Source of the DNA: Xiphias gladius
Taxonomy: Eukaryota > Chordata > Actinopteri > Istiophoriformes > Xiphiidae
Direction of reading: 5' to 3'
Assembly (NCBI RefSeq): GCF_016859285.1
Contig: NC_053407.1
Coordinates: forward strand, 17,324,632-17,388,631
Length of the DNA: 64,000 bases
Part shown: positions 21,153 to 55,585 of the stretch, piece after piece
Layout: every line of letters starts with the position of its first letter
Position numbering within the stretch: position 1 is the first letter of the stretch
Made by a program: the position numbers and the translations under genes
Notes under the pieces: generated by a model
Seen by the model: the letters and a program-made list of their open reading frames with translations, nothing else
Told to the model about the DNA's origin: nothing
The model's database searches: none

Positions 21153-21219
<67 letters not shown>
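21153..21219. repeat. (A)n(AT)n microsatellite
   Basis: About 15 A residues run into about 26 uninterrupted AT units. A near-palindrome, GGGAAATATATAAATATATTTCCC-like, follows at about 21226-21249. A short open frame across it is an artefact of the repeat. Confidence 0.95.
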
Positions 21220-21222
<3 letters not shown>

Positions 21223-25300: not shown

Positions 25301-28300
25301 TTACCTGTGTATTCAAGTGTCCAGAATGCAACTCAGTCTTTCCACAAAAGCAGCTGTTAATGCAGCACTTCAAGGTTAGTTTGATTGAATTTTATATAAA
25401 GAGATCTTTTTAATGTTTGTTAGTTTAAAATAAACACCCTGCAAGTAATTCTGTTAGCATGTATTTGTAGGTTGAATTTAATTGTAAAGTAGGAGTTTTA
25501 AGATATATCTATGTACTTGGTTGCCTATTTCATACTTGAAACTTGAATAATGAAAATATATAGGAGGGCTTGGCCACACTATTGAATTTGCCAAACAATG
25601 CTCAGCTACTGCTTTGTCACAGAATTTAATCCGCAATACCTTGCACATGATACAGAGAAATCAACATGGTAAATCATGAAATCACCCAGTCCAACAACAC
25701 TGAAGTGTCAGTCTCATATATTGTTACCTCTTGGGATTTTTGCCATGTTATTTCTGTTTTTCAGGGTGTGCATGTGGGAAACACGACAGCAGAGACGGAG
25801 AAGAATGGTAGACAATCTGACAAGACTGACCGGCACCAGCATATTCATTCCGTCCAACAACAGAAGAGTCACAGTGCCGTTAAACACACAGACGGTCCCA
25901 GAAAAAAAGCTGAGCAGGATGGCAGAACTCGTGTGAAGCCTACCGGCTGGACGTGTGGGGAGTGTCTCCAGTGGTTCCCTGAAAGAGAATCCTATGTTTC
26001 CCATGTGAAGACCAAACATGGAAAGGTATTATAATAATAATAACAATAATAACAATAATAATCATAATAACAATAATAATAATATACTAATATATAAAAA
26101 TAATCAAATATACTGGCAGTGTGTACTTAAACTAGTATCAAACAAAAAAAATCACTCTCCGACACTCTGTCAGGATTCCAGTATTGAAACTACAGTATTA
26201 TAATGTGTTGAATACACTTTGCTTTCAATTTGAATACAGCACAGTGTTGATATTGTTATTTGGGTCCTGATATCAAGTTATCAGTTTGATAATCAAGTTA
26301 TCAAAATTTCTGATTATCAGAACCCTAGTGTGTTCACAGATGAAATTTTATTGGCTATTTGTATCCTACCAATCGAGGTGTATGCGCTCCCAGTGAGCAT
26401 GCCTAAAGGGAAATCCAGACTCAGAGTTTTTTGAAGTTGTCCATCTCACAGAACTGATACATTTCTACATCTCCAAATGGCTCTAATTTAAATTAAATGT
26501 ACCATATTTTTTGCATACATTGCTTTCTTGCTTTGTGGCAGTGTATGGTAGCTCTGGAAATTTATACCAATGTATTGGTCCACAAAGACTTAGAGGCGTG
26601 TGTGTGACATCCATCAATACATTACCCCCTCCCTTTTTTGACACTGCTACTGAATATTTTTTCTTTGGGATATTTATTCAAGAGTAATCCACATAAACAG
26701 CTATTCAAATCACACAGGCTGCGTAGTGAAAGCGGCACATGAGCAGAGCAGCAGCTTTAGTCCTGTATCTATACAGGATGCATTCAGGCACGGTATTGAA
26801 CCATAACGTATGCACAGTACTGTGTATTTTTACGCTTTAAGTCCACTTTCTTGCATACGTTATACTGTAGTTACGCATGCAAAATGGAAAGAAAGTGGAC
26901 TTAAAGCGTAAAAATACACAGTACTGTGCATACGTTATGGTGCAAGTTAAACGCAAGCCGTTTCGTGGCCTGCATAGACAACTGTATTGATCATTATAAT
27001 AGAGGCCTATCTGTTCTGTCAGCGGCATGAGATGGATGACTGAACACGGGATGAAATTCCGCCCATGCAAACAAGCCTTACATGCTGTGAACCTATATCT
27101 GCAACAATTGATCAAGGCCTCCAGTTTCACAATGAACATTTCAGCTTCATTGTGAGCATATTATGTGATGTTGGTTGGGCAAACTGAAATACATGAAGCA
27201 ATAAATTAATAACAGAACCATCGTTTTCCTCCTGCATACTCATCATGTAGTCTACCTGAAAACTATGCTAACATGAAGCGGACTAATAGTTTGGGTGGTA
27301 TGTCTGGTTGGTCGTCCTGATTTAAGACATTTTGGCCAGCCACTGTCCTTCCAGCAGCGCAACTTGTACAGTGCTGAAAGGACAGATGACAATTGGTTCT
27401 GAGGACAGTGACTCCTACAGCCGAGGTCAGAGTTGGTGTTGATTGAATGGATGGATGCAACCATGGCATGAGACAAGCGGCTGGTGTCTTGATTCTGGGG
27501 TGAATTTCAAATTATACCCAAAAGGGTTTTGCCAAAGTGTTGCATGTTCACGCTTACCTCATAACTCAAGTTCAGTACAACATAAGTCGGAAGAAACCTT
27601 TAATACAGTTCGTCAAGCTTGTATTGTCTCACCTTTTTATTTTTATTTTTTAATGTCATCAGTCAATGAAGAAGTATCCATGTCGACATTGTGAGCAGTC
27701 TTTCAACTCTACAACCAGTCTGAGAAGACATATTCGCAATGACCATGACGGGAAAAAGAAAATTTACACTTGCTGGTAAGATTTGTTATGTTTGAAAATG
27801 AAGTAATCAGTGTTGTCACAGTGTTGTGTCAAATTAACCATCGAATCATCAATTTCCATTTCCATTGTTTGTTTGTTTCTTTTTTTCTTTCTTTCTTTCT
27901 TTCTTTTTTAAACCCTTGAGGTATTGCACGGACACAAAGACTTTATTTACGACAAGTGTGATGTTGAAAAACCACATCAGTCTGATGCATGGAATCAAAA
28001 ATCCTGATCTTGGCCAAATGCCGAAAACCGCCATCCAGGACTCAAAAAAGGCTTTGGGCAAGGTATTTATTTATTATTTTACTAACGCAAACAAAAAATA
28101 ACTGCATGCATAAAGAAACATTTTATAGATCTTACGTGTCATCATTTTAATGTGTGTGACTTCTGTGATTTGCAGGGAGTTGTATCAGAGACACCTGCTG
28201 TGGGCACACAGAAGGAGGGGCCAGATCGCGCTGGGAGTCTGGAGGCTCCATCGGCGAAGCGTCTGAAAACTCAGTTCCGCTGTTCAAAGTGTGGTTTCAT

Positions 28301-37790: not shown

Positions 37791-38654
37791 TCATCTTCTC
37801 ATAGTTTTTTTTTTCAGAGGGACGGTGGTGCCAAAGATTATGTCCCAGTGTCTGAAGAAAGGAGCGTAGTTACTGTTCGGCTTCTGGTGGTGCATGTCAT
37901 GAGCTGGTGCACCACCCAGCAGACCAAAAGGCACCAGATGGTTGAGGGTCCACGGCAGGTTGTAGCCTATGTGGTCCTCCACAGACATCCAGATACTGAA
38001 AATTGTGACGCACCATGTGGTCAGCGGGTGACACTTCAAAAGAACAGGGTCCTGGTTGCTCCAGACGCCCACAGTCATCAGCTCCGGGATGCTGAGCTGC
38101 TCCGTTGACCACGAGAAAGGTGCCATGTATTCATGGTGGATTGCATGGATCCACCGGTAAAGCTGTGGGTGCTTGTGATGTATGAAATGCCAAATGTAGT
38201 ACTGAGTGTCAAAGAGTAGAAGTACAGCCAGTCCATCAATAAATACCTCATACAGCGAAGGAGCCTCCTGTGGCAGTGCTGGTGCTGGCAATATGAACAT
38301 GCCAATGAATACACTTGGGAGAACAAAGAAGATGTGGTTATACAGCGCTGTATTGAAGCTCTTAGCCATCATTCCCAGTGTTGGCTGCCTGTCTGGTTGG
38401 ATCTTGTACTGATACATTAAGGGCACCTTTTCTCCCAAGAGATCCAGTACAGCAAAAGGTATACTGAAGAAGAAATAGCTGGAAAAAGCAAGTAGGACTG
38501 GGAAAAAAGGAGATGAAATGAGAGGCCGGTGGTGAAAAAGCAAATAGTCCCAGAAAGGCTGCAGCAGACAGTCTGAGGCCCTGGAGCAGACTGTCTGCTC
38601 CAGGTGAGCTGCAGAGGCAGTGAGCGGCAGAGGCAGCCCACTGATGTTCAACAT
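37791..38654 (-). CDS. ch25hl: Cholesterol 25-hydroxylase-like protein, intact copy
   Basis: Di-iron membrane enzyme of the sterol desaturase/hydroxylase family, expected in the ER, adding a hydroxyl to a sterol side chain. It is a single exon, as usual for CH25H genes, of 287 residues; human CH25H has 272. The start is the ATG at 38654 giving MLNISGLPL; the codon five positions upstream is TTG, not ATG. It has several hydrophobic segments. The three histidine boxes are HFIHH (156-160), HAIHH (170-174) and HDMHH (252-256). The conserved end NYAPFFRHWDIIFGT is present. LQPFWD, YKIQPD, SVEDHIGYNLPW and VPFGLLGG align with human CH25H. The exact sterol substrate is not shown by sequence. Confidence 0.92.
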   Translation of the reverse strand: MLNISGLPLPLTASAAHLEQTVCSRASDCLLQPFWDYLLFHHRPLISSPFFPVLLAFSSYFFFSIPFAVLDLLGEKVPLMYQYKIQPDRQPTLGMMAKSFNTALYNHIFFVLPSVFIGMFILPAPALPQEAPSLYEVFIDGLAVLLLFDTQYYIWHFIHHKHPQLYRWIHAIHHEYMAPFSWSTEQLSIPELMTVGVWSNQDPVLLKCHPLTTWCVTIFSIWMSVEDHIGYNLPWTLNHLVPFGLLGGAPAHDMHHQKPNSNYAPFFRHWDIIFGTTVPLKKKTMRR

Positions 38655-42500: not shown

Positions 42501-43352
42501 ATCTCAGTGGTGCAGCTTGATACAAATCCTGCGTTTTCCTGTGCTAATTAACAATTACGCCATGGATGCTGTCTTAATATTGTAGGAATATTTGAATACT
42601 TTATTAATTTGTGGAGAGGGTTCCGTGTTTGTCTCTAAACAACAGCAATACATTTTCACTTTGTATTACAGAAGTAATACGTAGGTGGATTTTTCCCTAA
42701 ACTCGTGGGGGAGGAGTAGAGATAGAAAGTAGAAGAAAATGTTTACCCAGTCTGGATCAGTGGCCTCTACAGTCACCCTGTAATAAGTAACTTTGCCATC
42801 ACTGCGTTCCTGAACAATAAGCTGGTCTTTGGGAAAACGCTTCTTCAACTGTTTGATTTCGGTGTCTCGTAGCTGCTTGGCGACATCCTCTGTCAGATCA
42901 CACAGCCTGACGTCCTGGAGGATGCTGGGGCGGGATACTGGTGGCATTCTCTGAGCGGGTCTTGTCTGACTGCCAGAAACAGGCAGCTCATCCACCGGGG
43001 GGAGCTGAGGTGGATGCCAGAAGCGACACCTGTCCTCCATGGTGCAGTGGCCTGAGATAAAGTAGCGACATGGGCGGCGCCCAGCTGAAGGGCCAGCCCT
43101 AGAGTTATTAGCAGGAAGAGGCCCTTGCCCTACATTTCCTCCAGGATCCTCTGAGTTTGGACGTGTGGCATTTGACTGGCTGGGTGTCCTGACTGTTTTC
43201 ATCACTTGAGCACTGGTGTCATCTCTTACATGTAGAAATTTACATCTCTTCCCAAAACTGCAGTGTCTCCCTTGAGAGAAGAAGCGGCACAGTTGCTGTG
43301 TATGACGAACTGGCTCTGATTCACCTGTTCTCCCTTCCTCACCATTCTCCAT
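39569..43352 (-). CDS. CCCH-type, RWD-like and CHY-type zinc finger protein
   Basis: Coding exons in transcript order: 43352-42747, 42273-42214, 42124-42072, 41999-41855, 41711-41323, 41199-40971, 40824-40710, 40470-40359, 40268-40157, 39903-39791, 39638-39569. They join in frame to 667 residues. A non-coding first exon probably ends at 43873. Two CCCH fingers are visible: C22-C31-C37-H41 and C95-C103-C109-H113. They are followed by an RWD-like fold (about 185-300; DIMVSFPDNYPQEIFTLDIP has the YP signature). Next come an acidic linker, two Cys-rich exons, and a C-terminal CHY zinc finger (about 557-640: CKHY, RWLRFPCCG, CDVCHDEDQDH, CGYC, HWEGG). The CCCH pair suggests RNA binding. CHY fingers occur in Hot13 and RCHY1-type proteins. 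I do not recognise a named orthologue and assign no function. Confidence 0.88.
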
Positions 43353-44066
43353 TGTTTTTAAACACCTGAATGAATAAATACAGTTACACAGATTATTGAG
43401 ATGCACCTACGTCTTAAACACTAAGGAGCATTGTCATGTTGAAATAGGCAAGGACCTTCCCCAAAATGCTGCCACACAGTTGGAAGAACATTATTGTGTA
43501 AAAGAGTGGTTCTCCACAAATTTTGGCTTGGTTATTTTCCTTCTCTGATCGTTTAATATAAATAATCTGTAGAGGCCCGAGGAAGAGAAAGTATCCAGTA
43601 TTTCACAAGAAAAAAAAAAAAGCAAAATCTGAGACTGAGGTATGTATACAGCGGTGTCCACATATCTTTGGCTGTATAGTGTAGCTTTATGGCCAGGGCA
43701 AAGTATCAGCATCTACTACAATGTTAAACGGCCTAGTAGTATTATAACATAAGAAGGGACCCACGTTAGCTGTCCACTTAGCTAGCTAAACTTTACGTAC
43801 AGTTGTCGAGAACTTCCTACTGTTGTCCCTTAATTCAAATCAAAGGACTGACAGTTGAAAGATGTCTTTACCTGAAATATACGCAAGGGTCCGCGCAAAG
43901 TTTTATTCCGTGTGACCTGCGACCTGCCAAGTGACTCCACCGTTAGGTGTTACAACGTGTTGGTGCGCGTAACCAAACAGCTTAATAGTTTTGCGTCATT
44001 ACGTGCTACGAGAAGTTCCGAATCGGTAAGGGTGGCAAAAGGGTCCACACCAAACCAGAGTGTCAC
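43353..44066 (-). other. 5' UTR, first intron and promoter of the CCCH/CHY gene
   Basis: The acceptor CATTCAG lies just before the coding exon, and a donor (TTTCAG|GTAAAG) read on the minus strand at 43873 marks a non-coding first exon. Upstream DNA to 44066 is GC richer than its surroundings and contains TGCGTCAT- and ACGTG-like boxes near 43992-44006. These are promoter candidates only. Confidence 0.45.
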
Positions 44067-44610
44067 GTGTAGCGGTTATGGAGATTTTAGTTACAGGTTG
44101 TCGAAAGGCGAAAGGTCCTCGGTTGTACACTGGATAGAATTTTGTTTTGTCGCCCTCTATAGTCTGGGAGGTTCACAATTTATTCTTGACCCCAATGTCA
44201 GCATATCACAAGATCTTTATTAGTAGATGGAGTTTGCCCCGCTGTAACGGACTGGTAGATTGCCTTTTTTTTTTTTTTGCAAGCTTAAGAGACGTGTCAT
44301 CCATGTTGGCTGAAAAGATTCAAAGTTCATTCTTGGACTGAGAAAACAATTGTGCCACAAAGTCCGCTTAGTACACTGTAAATCCCGATATAATAATTTA
44401 ATCAACTAATCTTTTCTCATGAATTTAATGTATAATCTTTTAAGTGTTAAGAAAAACTGTGAATTTGAAGTCCACGACAACAGGGCAAACTCCAACTGCT
44501 GATGAAGGTCATGTGACCTGATTGAAAAAATTCAAGAGCAGCTGCTAAATGGACCTCCTGGTGAGATATTTGTCTCAACATTTCCTTCCTCTTTTTCAAA
44601 GTAAACATAC
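44067..44610. repeat. Mosaic segment R1, left copy
   Basis: About 544 bases nearly identical to 46001-46542, in the same orientation. By eye there are about eight substitutions and a poly-T length difference. It lies directly upstream of the CCCH/CHY gene promoter. No coding content was recognised. Confidence 0.92.
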
Positions 44611-44618
44611 TGCGTGTC

Positions 44619-45585
44619 TTGCATGTCTATGTCTCTATAGAGGATCACTGTGGCTATGATTTCCCCTGGTCCACATCACGTCTGATACCGTTTGGCATCT
44701 ATGGAGGGCCCAGCAAGCATGATGTGCACCATCAAAAAGCCCAACACCAACTTTGCACCACATTTTAGCCACCGGAACAAAATATTTGGGACACATGCTG
44801 ATTTGGGCTTCTCTACCCCTATAAAATAGAGGGCTGTTACACTTTTGGTAGAAGCTATAGATAGAGACCTGTATTTTTAATATTTCTGTGTTTGTTCTTC
44901 CAAATTATCTGCACATTATAATGTGAAGAGGGGGGCGTTGAAGAGAAATCTACATTTTCCCTCACAAACAAATGGAGGCATGCTACTGTATCGTATTTGA
45001 AAAACAACATAGTCAAAATAAGATGTGTGAGAGTTTCCTGCAGCTTTTACGATAATGAGCAAATCTGTTAATCAGATCTCAAAAAAAGTATCATTTGAAC
45101 TTTTCGCACAATCTAAATAATACCTAAATGCGTCCGTCTCCCAGTGTATCTGGTTTCTTTACTCTGAAAGCGATCCTGAGCTTTAGACTTGATTTACATC
45201 ACATTCTTCCTCATGTAAATAATCCATCCTTTGAGCCACCAGTGTGATGTTTCATGTAATCTAATTTCAATTTAATTTTAATTTTTATTTCACTGTTTTT
45301 TCAAGCACAGAGAAAAAAAATAATTTGATTACAGTGACCACTGACTCGGGAATTGTGGGTTTTAACTCTGTTAGTTTAACAATAAATGACCTTAAATCTG
45401 GATTTCTATTTTGACACCAGTGTGCCTCTTGTATTTTTGAGGTCATGTAACCTGATCATTAATCCCAGACTGGTACTGATACTCTAAATATAAAATGTTT
45501 TATGTATGAGGGAGAAGAAAGTAAAAGTCAAATTATATATCCCAGCTCTAGATGTCAGCAAAGCACTCCAATTTCCATTTCGACT
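44619..45585 (+). pseudogene. Duplicated 3' end of ch25h-like gene (R2 copy)
   Basis: A copy of 47853-48816: the last roughly 60 codons of the second ch25h-like gene plus about 760 bases of 3' flank, with about 15 differences by eye. The gene body and promoter are absent, so it is a fragment. It shares the extra base of its source in the poly-A stretch after the HDVHH box. In the conserved tail it has also drifted where the source still encodes HFSHWDNIFGT (here H-R-N-K instead of H-W-D-N). Confidence 0.9.
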
Positions 45586-45999
45586 ATTCTGCTTAAACCA
45601 CTACAATTACAGTTCAGTTTTGGTTAAAACATCTACTTTCACCAGCAGTATTCTGTCAAGAAATAGTAGACACCACGGCCCAAATGACACAGCAGGTTTT
45701 TGGGTGTAAACCATGAAACTTAAGTGGCTTTGGCTTAGCTGATCCTTCTTTTAAGAATCAAACCTTGTAATCCCCTTTAGTATGTGGGATATATTGAGTA
45801 GTTATAGTGGACACAAGATAGATTTTGTCCTATAGCTGTTTTGTTTGTCTTTTTCTCAACAGTCTACTGTAGGTATTTTTTAGAATTTGCTTTGCTGATT
45901 ATGTAGGAACATCAAAACTCAAGAATGTAAATAAAATGTGAGGTGGAAGTTTGAAATCAAATGAGTGTGTTTTCTGATTTATTGTTTCATATGAATTTA
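45583..45999 (+). repeat. Duplicated end of the tspan3 3' UTR (R3 copy)
   Basis: About 416 bases matching 53884-54300 in the same orientation with roughly 2 % differences, including the tspan3 poly(A) signal. It is joined to R2 by a shared ACT. It is not followed by a poly(A) tail, which argues against origin from a processed transcript. Confidence 0.9.
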
Positions 46000-46000
46000 T

Positions 46001-46542
46001 GTGTAGCGCTTATGGAGATTTTAGTTACAGGCTGTCGAAAGGCGAAAGGTCCTCGGTTGTACACTAGATGGAATTTTGTTTTGTCACCCTCTATAGTCTG
46101 GGAGGTTCACAATTTATTCTTGACCCCAATGTCAGCATATCACAAGATCTTTATTAGTAGATGGAGTTTGCCCCGCTGTAACGGACTGGTAGATTGCCTT
46201 TTTTTTTTTTGCAAGCTTAAGAGACGTGTCATCCATGTTGGCTGAAAAGATTCAAAGTTCATTCTTGGACTGAGAAAACAATTGTGCCACAAAGTCCGCT
46301 TAGTACACTGTAAATCCCGATATAATAATTTAATCAACTAATCTTTTCTCATGAATTTAATGTATAATCTTTTAAGTGTTAAGAAAAACTGTGAATTTGA
46401 AGTCCACGACAACAGGGCAAACTCCAACTGCTGATGAAGGTCATGTGACCTGATTGAAAAAATTCAAGAGCAGCTGCTAAATGGACCTCCTGGTGAGATA
46501 TTTGTCTCAACACTTCCTTCCTCTTTTTCACAGTAAACATAC
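46001..46542. repeat. Mosaic segment R1, right copy
   Basis: Second copy of R1 (44067-44610), directly following R3. It is joined through a shared TGTAGCG. After 46542 the sequence continues with DNA that has no match to the start of R2. Confidence 0.92.
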
Positions 46543-47171
46543 AGTAGGCCTGCTGCAGCAGCGGGCCTGTTGAGCTGTTCAAGTGGAAGTTTCAAACATC
46601 AGAATGATGAATAATCAAAGCTGTTGTACTTTCTCATAAATTCAAGATTCACTTTATACATGTAAAAACTGAGTATATCACTTGATTACTCCTGACATGT
46701 ATAGGGTATACGATGTATTATTATTTATATTATATTGGTATATAATATTTATATTATATTTATATTGCTATGTTATGTTTTTATTGAAAGTGTGACTTGT
46801 ATGCTGTTTGTGTCTCCCGTTTTAAAAATATTCCTGTCTTCCTTTTAGCACCTTGTTCTTTGTGGGTCTTTCTGTCTTTAAATGACAGAGTGAACTATAC
46901 AAAAATTTCAGTAGGCTTGTATCTGTGTAAAATGGCAAATAAAGTCACTTGATCAGAGATATAGCTCTAATAGAAAGGTTGAGCAAAATAGGATTTTCAA
47001 ATCATTTCTCATACTTGAGAAGTTATCGTGGAGAGCTATATGTTACCAGTTACCGAGGGTGTATGAATAATTTGTTTCACCCAGCTTTCACCTGATACCA
47101 CACAGTGAGCAAAGCACAAGCAGACACTCATGGGTGAAGTCTTTACCATAGTCACTGTTTCTGGCTAGAAC
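46543..47171 (+). other. Upstream region of the second ch25h-like gene
   Basis: AT-rich DNA with a TATA/TTATAT-rich stretch at 46715-46765. An AATAAA occurs near 46937. No gene was recognised. The promoter of the ch25h-like gene should lie here. Confidence 0.45.
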
Positions 47172-48035
47172 ATGTACAGTCCTCAGACATTAGGTGTTCG
47201 ATATTCACCTTGTGTTTTTTACTTCAGGCTGGATCTTACAGATACCAGTATAGATCTTTGGATAAGATGCCTAGGAAACAACTCTTTGCTGCAGCCTCTG
47301 TGGGACAGCCTGAGGCTCAGCTACAGAGACTACTTGAGATCTCCACTCTTCCCTGTTGTTCTGACTGTGTCTTCCTACTTTGTCTTGTGCCTTCCCTTCC
47401 TTGCTTGTGACATCATGGGGGGCAGGTGGGCATGGGTCCAGCATTTCAAGATCCAACCTAGCCGACGGCCTACAGCCTCTACACTGCTTAACTGTGCAGG
47501 TGTCACCTTGCACAACCATGTGTTCCTTGTGCTCCCAGCATCACTGGCCCAGTGGGCATGGAGGCCACCTGTGGACCTGCCGGACCAGGCTCCGTCTCTG
47601 CTGGAGCTGATAGCTGGAGTGATAGCCAACCTGCTGCTCTTTGACTTCCAGTACTTCATCTGGCACCTGCTCCATCCCAGGATCCGCTGGCTGTATGCCA
47701 CTTTCCATGCCATCCATCATAATTACTCATCTCCCTTTGCTCTTGCCACTCAGTGTCTCGGCGGCTGGGAGCTGGTCACAGTTGGCTTTTGGACCACCCT
47801 GAATCCTGTGATCCTGCGATGCCATCTTCTCACCACATGGGCCTTCATGGTGTTGCATGTCTATGTCTCTATAGAGGATCACTGTGGCTATGATTTCCCC
47901 TGGTCCACATCACGTTTGATACCGTTTGGCATCTATGGAGGGCCCAGCAAGCATGATGTGCACCATCAGAAAACCCAACACCAACTTTGCACCACACTTC
48001 AGCCACTGGGACAATATATTTGGGACACATGCTGA
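47172..48035 (+). CDS. ch25hl: Cholesterol 25-hydroxylase-like protein, altered copy
   Basis: A second sterol hydroxylase-family gene, single exon, 287 residues from the ATG at 47172. The family core is clear: LLQPLWDSL, SSYFVLCLPF, FKIQPSRRP, SIEDHCGYDFPWSTSRLIPFG. Two features are odd. Histidine box 1 reads HLLHP (166-170) instead of HLLHH, losing a conserved metal-ligand position; boxes 2 (HAIHH) and 3 (HDVHH) are kept. After HDVHHQK, an extra base in the A run at 47970-47973 shifts the frame, so the protein ends QLGQYIWDTC-like rather than in the conserved tail. The other frame still encodes the family ending PNTNFAPHFSHWDNIFGT and then 12 codons to a stop at 48051-48053. It may be decaying, recoded, or affected by a sequence error; the duplicated fragment at 44619 shares the shift. 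The N-terminus is longer than in relatives. Confidence 0.75.
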   Translation: MYSPQTLGVRYSPCVFYFRLDLTDTSIDLWIRCLGNNSLLQPLWDSLRLSYRDYLRSPLFPVVLTVSSYFVLCLPFLACDIMGGRWAWVQHFKIQPSRRPTASTLLNCAGVTLHNHVFLVLPASLAQWAWRPPVDLPDQAPSLLELIAGVIANLLLFDFQYFIWHLLHPRIRWLYATFHAIHHNYSSPFALATQCLGGWELVTVGFWTTLNPVILRCHLLTTWAFMVLHVYVSIEDHCGYDFPWSTSRLIPFGIYGGPSKHDVHHQKTQHQLCTTLQPLGQYIWDTC

Positions 48036-53443
<5,408 letters not shown>

Positions 53444-55585
53444 AGGAGAACACATTTCTTATCTTAACACAAACTTTCAATATTTACGTGTCATCGGTGA
53501 GAGCATGAAAATAACCTAATACCACATTAACCTTAACACACTAACCACACTAAAGTTATGGAGCTTACCCATTTTTTTTCTTTTCAAAAAAAAAGAAAAA
53601 AAGAAAAAAGCTTACGACCAAATTCTTTAATGGTCAGTGAGAATGAGATGTAGAAAACAATCTGTTGCTCTGAGGATGGCATGAGGGTGTTAGACCTCAT
53701 TCTTACCAAACTTAAACTCTGTTAGTCGTGTATGGAGTAAAATGTCGACAGGATCATTTCTTCATATGTTAGTTTGCACTATGTGTATGGCTTTGAAATA
53801 TTTTATATTTAAACTTGTCATGTACTTGAATGAAAGAGTGTATAATTTCACCCTGTACCTCTGCTGCTATTACTACTGCTACTACTATTCTGCTTAAACT
53901 ACTACAATTACAGTTCAGTTTTGGTTAAAACATCTACTTTCACCAGCAGTATTCTGTCAAGAAATAGTAGACACTACGGCCCAAATGACACAGCAGGTTT
54001 TTGGGTGTAAACCATGAAACTTAAGTGGCTTTGGCTTAGCTGATCCTTCTTTTAAGAATCAAACCTTGTAACCCTCTTTAGTATGTGGGATATATTGAGT
54101 AGTTATAGTGGACACAAGATAGATTTTGTCCTATAGCTGTTTTGTTCGTCTTTTTCTCAACAGTCTACTGTTTGTAGTTTTTAGAATTTGCTTTGCTGAT
54201 TATGTAGGAACATCAAAACTCAAGAATGTAAATAAAATGTGAGGTGGAAGTTTGAAATCAAATGAGTGTGTTTTCTGATTTATTGTTTCATAGGAATTTA
54301 AAAACTTTACAATAATTTTTAAAATTAAAAAAAAAAAATGGCAAAACCCGTATTTACTGGCTGGTGTCAGTGGAAGAACAAGTTGTCTTGGTCCTAAAAA
54401 ACAGGTAAAAATTCAGGTATTTTCCCCATGAGGGAGGGTTGTAACTGGTTCACATTCAGCCACATGGTTTGTCCTGTGTTTATCTAATCTTTTATGCTTT
54501 GTAGGTTACCATGGGATAAAAATGTATTTAACATGTATAAATATTACTATTACTGGAATCACTAGACCTCGGTGTAACTGCCCCTGGAACATATGTGACT
54601 ACTGGACCAACATAGTGGACTTCATATGCCCTTAAAATGGTGCTAAAAGGACTGCTTTGGTTACGTGATAGACACTGAGTCAGCAGTGCATCACCTGCTG
54701 CAAAGTAACTAGATACCTTTGAACCAAAGAGGAGACTGCTCAGACACATGACCCAAGAATAGTGCCAGGGTGCATTTTTAGCTTCTTTGTTTGGATTGTT
54801 CTGGTCTGGTCTTCTTATTATCCCCATTAAAAATAGTCTTCACTACAATAAATGGGCCATAAGAGAGAAAAATAAAGAGTGATTTCATCACATTCTAAAT
54901 GTTTTTCTTAATTAGTGGAGGGTAAAAACAATGTTGACTGTGCTTAAAAAAACCTGAGGATTTGTCCGTCATATTGAATAAATACAAATAAATGCTCATG
55001 CACACACAATTTTTCTTTTTCAGCATTCAGAATAGAAACAATAACTACACAGAAATTACATAGAAGCCAACAACAGAAATCAAACATTCTACCCAATGTT
55101 TAGGACTTCAAATATAAAAGAATATAATTGACAATATATGAATAAACTTAGTGCAGTGACCTTGTGCAACAGATCAGTATATTTCCCAGCTGTCAATAAA
55201 TAATTCACTATTCAACAGTGGCTCGTGCCACTCTAAAGACCCCTATGTGCAGGATTTTTATGTGATAACAGCGATTTTAAATTATGAAGATTGCATAGTT
55301 TTTTTGCTTGTTGCTGTCAACCTTTCATTCTCATGGTCTATTGGCATGCATTGTTCTCTGTTACAGTGTCTTTTAAAGACTTAGTTACCAATAGGTGGCG
55401 CCAAATTTGGACATTTTCTTACATATCTGACACATAGGAGTTTAAATGATGTACTGTATGTAACAGAAATATAAACAGTAGATACAATTGAACTACAAGG
55501 TAACTTGGAAGGAAAGGGCCTTTAGAAAATATTACATGAGGAAATGTAGTAGTCAATAAGTCCAACAAATGACTGTCAGGTGAAC
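53444..55585. other. Convergent 3' region between tspan3 and pstpip1
   Basis: The tspan3 3' UTR runs to about 54250. From 54300 to 55585 lie AT-rich intergenic DNA and the presumed pstpip1 3' UTR. A CTCF-like motif occurs at 55388-55400. No gene was recognised. Confidence 0.55.
55388..55400 (+). promoter_or_regulatory. Weak CTCF-like motif between tspan3 and pstpip1
   Basis: CCAATAGGTGGCG fits the CTCF core CCASYAGRKGGCR with one mismatch (A at the S position). Its orientation is opposite to the motif at 31803. Confidence 0.3.

Follow-up and report, generated by a model that had tools for sequence, protein, structure and literature searches.

A mosaic of three locally duplicated segments in Xiphias gladius, probably the scar of a single replicative accident

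We describe a short duplicated structure in the genome of Xiphias gladius (assembly of 690.8 Mb in 1,298 contigs), in which a host segment, R1, is followed by copies of the ends of two downstream genes, R2′ and R3′, and then by R1 again, while every parent is still present downstream. It lies on contig NC_053407.1 within a 64-kb stretch (17,324,632–17,388,631), here called the window; positions are counted from the first base of the window and refer to its plus strand unless stated otherwise. We consider a single germline replication or break-repair event, with repeated template switches, to be the likely best explanation of this layout, and the mosaic is probably an old scar of a known kind, ordinary in nature and tidy as an example.

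Comparison of the window with itself (blastn, E ≤ 1e-10) returned three long direct pairs, all at E = 0: R1 (44067–44610 = 46001–46542; 544 columns, 98.3%), R2 (44616–45585 = 47850–48816; 970 columns, 97.9%) and R3 (45583–45999 = 53884–54300; 417 columns, 97.8%, the shared ACT included). Read with global alignment, the mosaic runs from R1a, the left copy of the 544-bp host segment (44067–44610), through 8 unmatched bases (44611–44618) into R2′ (44619–45585, a copy of 47853–48816), whose last three bases, ACT (45583–45585), are both the end of R2 and the start of R3; it then continues through R3′ (45586–45999, a copy of 53887–54300) and a single extra T (46000) to R1b, the right copy of the host segment (46001–46542). 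These comparisons confirm the mosaic and its reported coordinates. An earlier sequence-only reading had described an R1–R2–R3–R1 mosaic in one orientation, with 8 unmatched bases between R1 and R2 and differences of about 1–2% in all three pairs; self-blastn and global alignment bear out each of these points, with direct orientation throughout and measured identities of 97.8–98.3%.

The layout is thus X–R1–R2′–R3′–R1, in which the pieces retain their genomic order and form a directly oriented DUP-NML-DUP-NML-DUP. The three copied pieces are joined end to end, every parental piece is still present within 8.3 kb, and the rearrangement added a net 1,934 bp; in the pre-event arrangement the gaps would be 1,310 bp from R1 to R2 and 5,067 bp from R2 to R3, in a span of 8,300 bp. 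When the search was extended to 264 kb (the window plus 200 kb upstream; megablast with low-complexity masking), no duplicate pair of 150 bp or longer turned up besides the three of the mosaic, and neither gap had a second copy of that length. Across the 690.8-Mb assembly, no other near-identical copy of the mosaic was present among the matches listed (40 of 64 candidates scored), and none was listed for the R1–R2 spacer (1,310 bp; 3 of 3 candidates scored). The remaining self-blastn rows were the match of the window to itself and four self-complementary rows at two places. One of these places, 26796–26945, is a palindrome of ~150 bp (84% with gaps) that could fold as a long hairpin, and the other is a run of TA dinucleotides of ~52 bp (21167–21222).

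Each of the three joins can be read base by base in the assembly. R1a ends in ...GTAAACATAC, followed by the 8 unmatched bases (5, if a weak GTG extension by blastn is counted) and then by TTGCATG..., the beginning of R2′. A search of both strands of the window for the 8 inserted bases met no second full-length occurrence, and a few matches of 6 and 7 bp that may be fortuitous. At the R2′/R3′ join, ACT is present in both parents, as had been noticed from the sequence, and it is the sole microhomology among the three joins. It is weak evidence, because at least 3 bp are common to 6.2% of 200,000 random joins drawn within 43.5–55 kb. The second homology that had been proposed, TGTAGCG at R3/R1, is absent: after ...GAATTTA the R3 parent continues AAAACTTT, whereas the copy reads ...GAATTTA-T-GTGTAGCG, with one extra base at 46000 ahead of R1, and TGTAGCG is merely the start of R1. 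A 3-bp match, an 8-bp insert and a 1-bp insert are not specific to one mechanism, and they fall within the range reported for such events in the parts of PMC5120786 and PMC6902434 drawn on here.

Substitutions were counted from the global alignment, in which the mismatch at 44618 falls among the unmatched bases and is dropped, so that R2 goes from 16, itself one fewer than blastn counts, to 15. R1 carries 7 substitutions in 544 bp and one 2-bp poly-T indel, R2 carries 15 in 967 bp and three 1-bp T indels, and R3 carries 9 in 414 bp; over the 1,925 retained bases the indels amount to four events of 1–2 T each. The pieces do not differ significantly in divergence (chi-square P = 0.55; pairwise Fisher P = 0.82, 0.32 and 0.50), although 31 changes would hardly suffice to reveal a modest difference in age. 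For all three together the divergence is 1.61% (95% interval 1.10–2.28%; K80 = 0.0163), with 19 transitions and 12 transversions, and the substitutions between copies look like real mutations. Events of this kind can draw on the homologous chromosome as template (PMC12616954); had that happened in this case, some of the divergence would have been present at birth and the implied age would be an upper bound.

We infer a single event, replicative in nature, that may have travelled and stalled as follows. The locus before the event would have read X–R1–1.3 kb–R2–5.1 kb–R3. Having copied R1, the nascent strand would have come off its template, with a short hairpin as the possible cause. Synthesis would have resumed on R2, ~1.3 kb further on; a second switch, over the 3-bp match, would have moved it ~5.1 kb ahead to copy R3, and a return of 8.3 kb to the start of R1 would have led to R1 being copied again before synthesis continued. 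The mirror image of this course, on the other strand, may equally be the one taken. The product would be a net insertion of 1,934 bp, X–R1–R2′–R3′–R1–..., that leaves the downstream parental genes in place. Human genetics would name it a DUP-NML-DUP-NML-DUP formed via FoSTeS/MMBIR, and cancer genomics a local cycle of templated insertions. A replicative accident is a known route and offers a one-step account, because PMC6902434, PMC7025897 and PMC10482687 describe such forms in the portions consulted. The serial template switching put forward in the sequence-only reading stays the best fit and matches the human DUP-NML-DUP pattern, but some of what was cited for it does not hold: equal divergence is no proof, one of the two microhomologies is absent, and the jumps of about 3 kb and then 8 kb had been measured on the derived chromosome; in pre-event coordinates, two forward moves of 1.3 and 5.1 kb precede a return of 8.3 kb. 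It also counts against switching that one join lacks microhomology, that the 8-bp insert has no known source and that end joining would do equally well.

A further point against a single switching event is that order and orientation are kept, which tandem duplication with deletion predicts and switching merely allows. An 8.3-kb tandem duplication of 46001–54300, followed by two deletions in the redundant first copy, one of 1.3 kb and one of 5.1 kb, would leave exactly the order and orientation of a tandem copy with two gaps; the parts lost would include redundant gene bodies, and the joins are compatible with end joining. Equal divergence had been taken as a sign of one event, and the divergences are indeed homogeneous, but it cannot exclude this two-stage origin, because duplication followed by deletions predicts the same order, orientation and divergence; the mosaic illustrates that, to tell template switching from duplication with later deletion, equal divergence is not enough. 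We nevertheless find the two-stage origin doubtful. It takes three events, two of them kilobase-sized, against four indels of 1–2 bp in the 1,925 retained bases. Two deletions of at least 1 kb would have a probability of 0.0009, 0.07 or 0.21 if such events made up 0.5, 5 or 10% of indels, a share that is assumed here and set against surviving pieces that are a biased sample. In addition, the spacer between R1 and R2 has no second near-identical copy among the assembly matches listed.

In another account, a staggered double-strand break in R1, with ends ~540 bp apart, would have been filled and closed with two patches copied or captured from nearby DNA, by patch-mediated repair or by theta-mediated joining with templated inserts. 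It differs from the template-switching account mainly in the initiating lesion. The 8-bp and 1-bp junction inserts would suit it, as would a class of rice duplications summarised in PMC7407515, in which DNA from the neighbourhood, in many cases from more than one site, has been inserted. The rice class as given there measures 10–1000 bp and takes its inserts from within 200 bp of the break, whereas here a patch of 967 bp comes from 1.3 kb, and one of 414 bp from 7.3 kb, beyond the end of R1. We regard this course as improbable.

A divergence of ~1.6% lies within the range possible between haplotypes of a highly variable fish. It would be compatible with an assembly artefact in which pieces of the other haplotype, or misjoined reads, were placed beside the main copy, and placeholder gaps do exist in the assembly, with one run of 5,000 N in the 200 kb upstream. 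The window itself, however, contains no N, its joins are base-exact and carry inserted bases, no other contig was near-identical to the mosaic or to the spacer among the candidates scored above, and double placement of a haplotype would presumably have duplicated the entire stretch rather than three chosen pieces. Judged from the sequence, an assembly error appears unlikely, and we give it very little credence. That circular DNA of R1–R2–R3 re-entered the chromosome by homologous recombination in R1 is scarcely credible: one crossover in R1 would yield R1–R2′–R3′–R1 with the parents intact, but the same three joins would be needed in the circle itself, an extra step with no added explanation.

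The differences between copies are unevenly placed within the pieces. In R1, five of the seven substitutions fall within the leftmost 86 bp and two near the right end, and the first group is followed by a run of 428 bp that is free of them (P = 1.5e-4 for a run of this length; one 2-bp indel lies inside it); R2′ has a cluster of seven substitutions in 47 bp (44735–44781; P = 4e-4), both P values being uncorrected for the six tests made; when all 31 changes are pooled, the clean run has P = 0.012 and the cluster P = 0.002. The other tests for clustering were null, in R1 for the densest 50 bp (P = 0.46), in R2 for the longest clean run (P = 0.16) and in R3 for both measures (P = 0.49 and 0.33). 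Differences lie on average 124 bp from the ends of the pieces, against 177 bp expected (P = 0.003; P = 0.012 after neighbours within 20 bp are merged). This overall end-clustering is driven by R1 (P = 0.0006), with R2 at P = 0.02 (0.08 with neighbours merged) and none in R3 (P = 0.68); fixed edge zones at eight distances from 20 to 150 bp gave marginal results (P = 0.03–0.35). Within R2, the coding end (8 of 211 bases changed) is more diverged than the 3′ region (7 of 756; P = 0.007).

End-clustering could come from error-prone synthesis near the joins, which PMC6902434, in the part drawn on here, reports as a feature of replicative rearrangements. Later gene conversion between the two R1 copies would alternatively explain the clean middle of R1. 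That the mosaic is an inherited, sub-kilobase cycle of templated insertions which, at ~1.6% divergence, still keeps mutation clusters from error-prone synthesis beside its joins is a tentative idea that we would not bet on. Were such clusters real, old events could be told from stepwise duplication and deletion by mutation pattern alone. One further source for the R2′ cluster, capture of another ch25h gene, is not supported: assembly-wide there are nine ch25h-like places, namely the gene itself, R2′ and seven others, and those seven reach only 35–51% protein identity.

The mosaic stands between a CCCH zinc-finger open reading frame (42666–43406, minus strand) and a ch25h-like frame (47172–48032), with a tetraspanin gene beyond. 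The ch25h-like frame has a PF04116 (FA_hydroxylase) match and an exon at 50786–50974 a Tetraspanin (PF00335) match; the domains support a fatty-acid hydroxylase and a tetraspanin, and the narrower names ch25h-like and tspan3, which follow the sequence-only reading, are putative. A PDB search with the ch25h-like frame gave no matches, and neither did Rfam in the window. The R2 parent (47853–48816) comprises the end of the reading frame and the 3′ region of the ch25h-like gene, both of which R2′ carries, and the R3 parent (53884–54300) is the end of the tetraspanin gene 3′ region, which R3′ follows to ~64 bp past an AATAAA motif. The earlier description of an extra copy of two genes' 3′ ends agrees with these matches to the end regions of both parents. 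RNA-based copying of the two 3′ ends is rejected: the joins carry no poly-A, the AATAAA motifs do not mark the limits of the pieces, and R2′ runs directly into R3′ over the 3 bp that both share.

None of the CCCH, ch25h-like and tetraspanin frames is interrupted by the mosaic; the original flank on the CCCH side still joins R1, and the original downstream flank joins the second R1. The mosaic had also been placed beside the CCCH promoter. Its position agrees with this, as it starts ~0.7 kb upstream of the minus-strand CCCH frame, but the promoter is putative and no effect on that gene is indicated. With R2′ and R3′ come plus-strand AATAAA motifs, any use of which is conjectural. Most likely the mosaic has made the intergenic region 1.9 kb longer in a neutral way, with no function indicated.

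The parental ch25h-like frame contains a +1 frameshift between HHQK and NFAPHFSHWD, where it has 10 bases against 9 in paralogues. Four paralogues were compared, three (C20, C11 and C9) by DNA alignment and the minus-strand gene at 37881–38579 by protein spacing; the C19 matches, which were unaligned, lie outside this comparison. All four are without the frameshift, and R2′ has the same extra base as the parent. Because R2′ shares this base, the frameshift is probably older than the duplication, as far as the sequences indicate; and because the parental frameshift is found in R2′ and is lacking in the four paralogues, capture of another ch25h gene is again unsupported. At two amino-acid sites the parent and all four paralogues read HWD and R2′ reads HRN, which makes R2′ the derived copy at those sites. 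The parental gene (47172–48060) looks decayed, with its +1 frameshift and with HLLHP against HLLHH in the C20 and C11 paralogues. The second ch25h-like frame in the window (37881–38579, minus strand; FA_hydroxylase), ~9 kb away, is 43–44% identical and without the frameshift.

A decayed dispersed repeat occupies approximately 44200–44595 of R1a, as judged from assembly matches and from inverted arms at 44206–44253 and 44469–44516 that are 77% complementary; this inverted-repeat element, with its equivalent in R1b, spans most of the 428-bp stretch without substitutions. Its relatives, among the matches listed, are short stretches of 70–90% identity on many contigs and in both orientations. Their similarity begins ~130 bp in from one end of R1 and breaks off 15–30 bp before the other, boundaries that derive from the matches listed, with 5 of 45 other places aligned. 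Transposition of R1 is rejected, as the repeat inside it is old (other copies short and 70–90% identical) and its matches miss the ends of R1, yet the R1 copies are 98.3% alike. Neither boundaries at element ends nor poly-A at a join was found, as a transposon or a retrocopy would leave.

Three bases beyond the right end of R1 begins a short G+C-rich hairpin (46546–46568, plus strand), a possible stall site for which the evidence from fold tests is weak. Of seven breakpoint positions tested, one reached P < 0.05 (0.019, uncorrected), and no significance is left once the seven positions are corrected for. The fold is not unusual (z = −1.56), since 15 of 200 shuffles fold equally well.

Our search of the literature, by titles and abstract openings, met no such structure fixed in a fish genome, though one may exist in print. 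The wider importance of the mosaic is small, as no frame is interrupted and no function is indicated. Patch-mediated break-repair insertions in rice were reportedly described by Vaughn and Bennetzen in 2014. As summarised in PMC7407515, those duplications resemble the mosaic in carrying inserted DNA, often from several nearby sites, and differ in being smaller and in drawing their inserts from much closer DNA.

The closest likeness is to the human PLP1 locus, where directly oriented DUP-NML-DUP and DUP-NML-DUP-NML-DUP arrays are attributed to FoSTeS/MMBIR (PMC6902434). In the part of that study drawn on here, 3 of the 50 individuals show the triple array pattern, an inversion being part of at least one of these cases, and some gaps measure ~2–6 kb. 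Shared with the mosaic are duplicated segments split by copy-neutral gaps, small insertions at the joins and, in the two-segment form, a join that links the distal end of one segment to the proximal end of the following one, with a second join leading from the final distal end back to the initial proximal end (PMC6902434). The PLP1 arrays are recent patient events and large (~987 kb in one duplication; PMC6902434), whereas the pieces here measure 0.4–1.0 kb, are ~1.6% diverged and interrupt no reading frame. In cancer genomes, the PCAWG analysis applies the term cycle of templated insertions to a chain of copied templates that leads back to the host segment and replicates it once more (PMC7025897), and PMC10482687 describes reciprocal duplications with one insert between two copies of the host segment. 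In both, as far as these accounts are used here, copied templates lie between two copies of a re-replicated host segment, as in the mosaic; both are somatic and typically take their templates from different chromosomes, whereas the mosaic is inherited and all of its templates lie within 8.3 kb. If it did arise in one event, the mosaic would be a base-resolved, old germline example, at small scale, of a rearrangement described from human disease and cancer.
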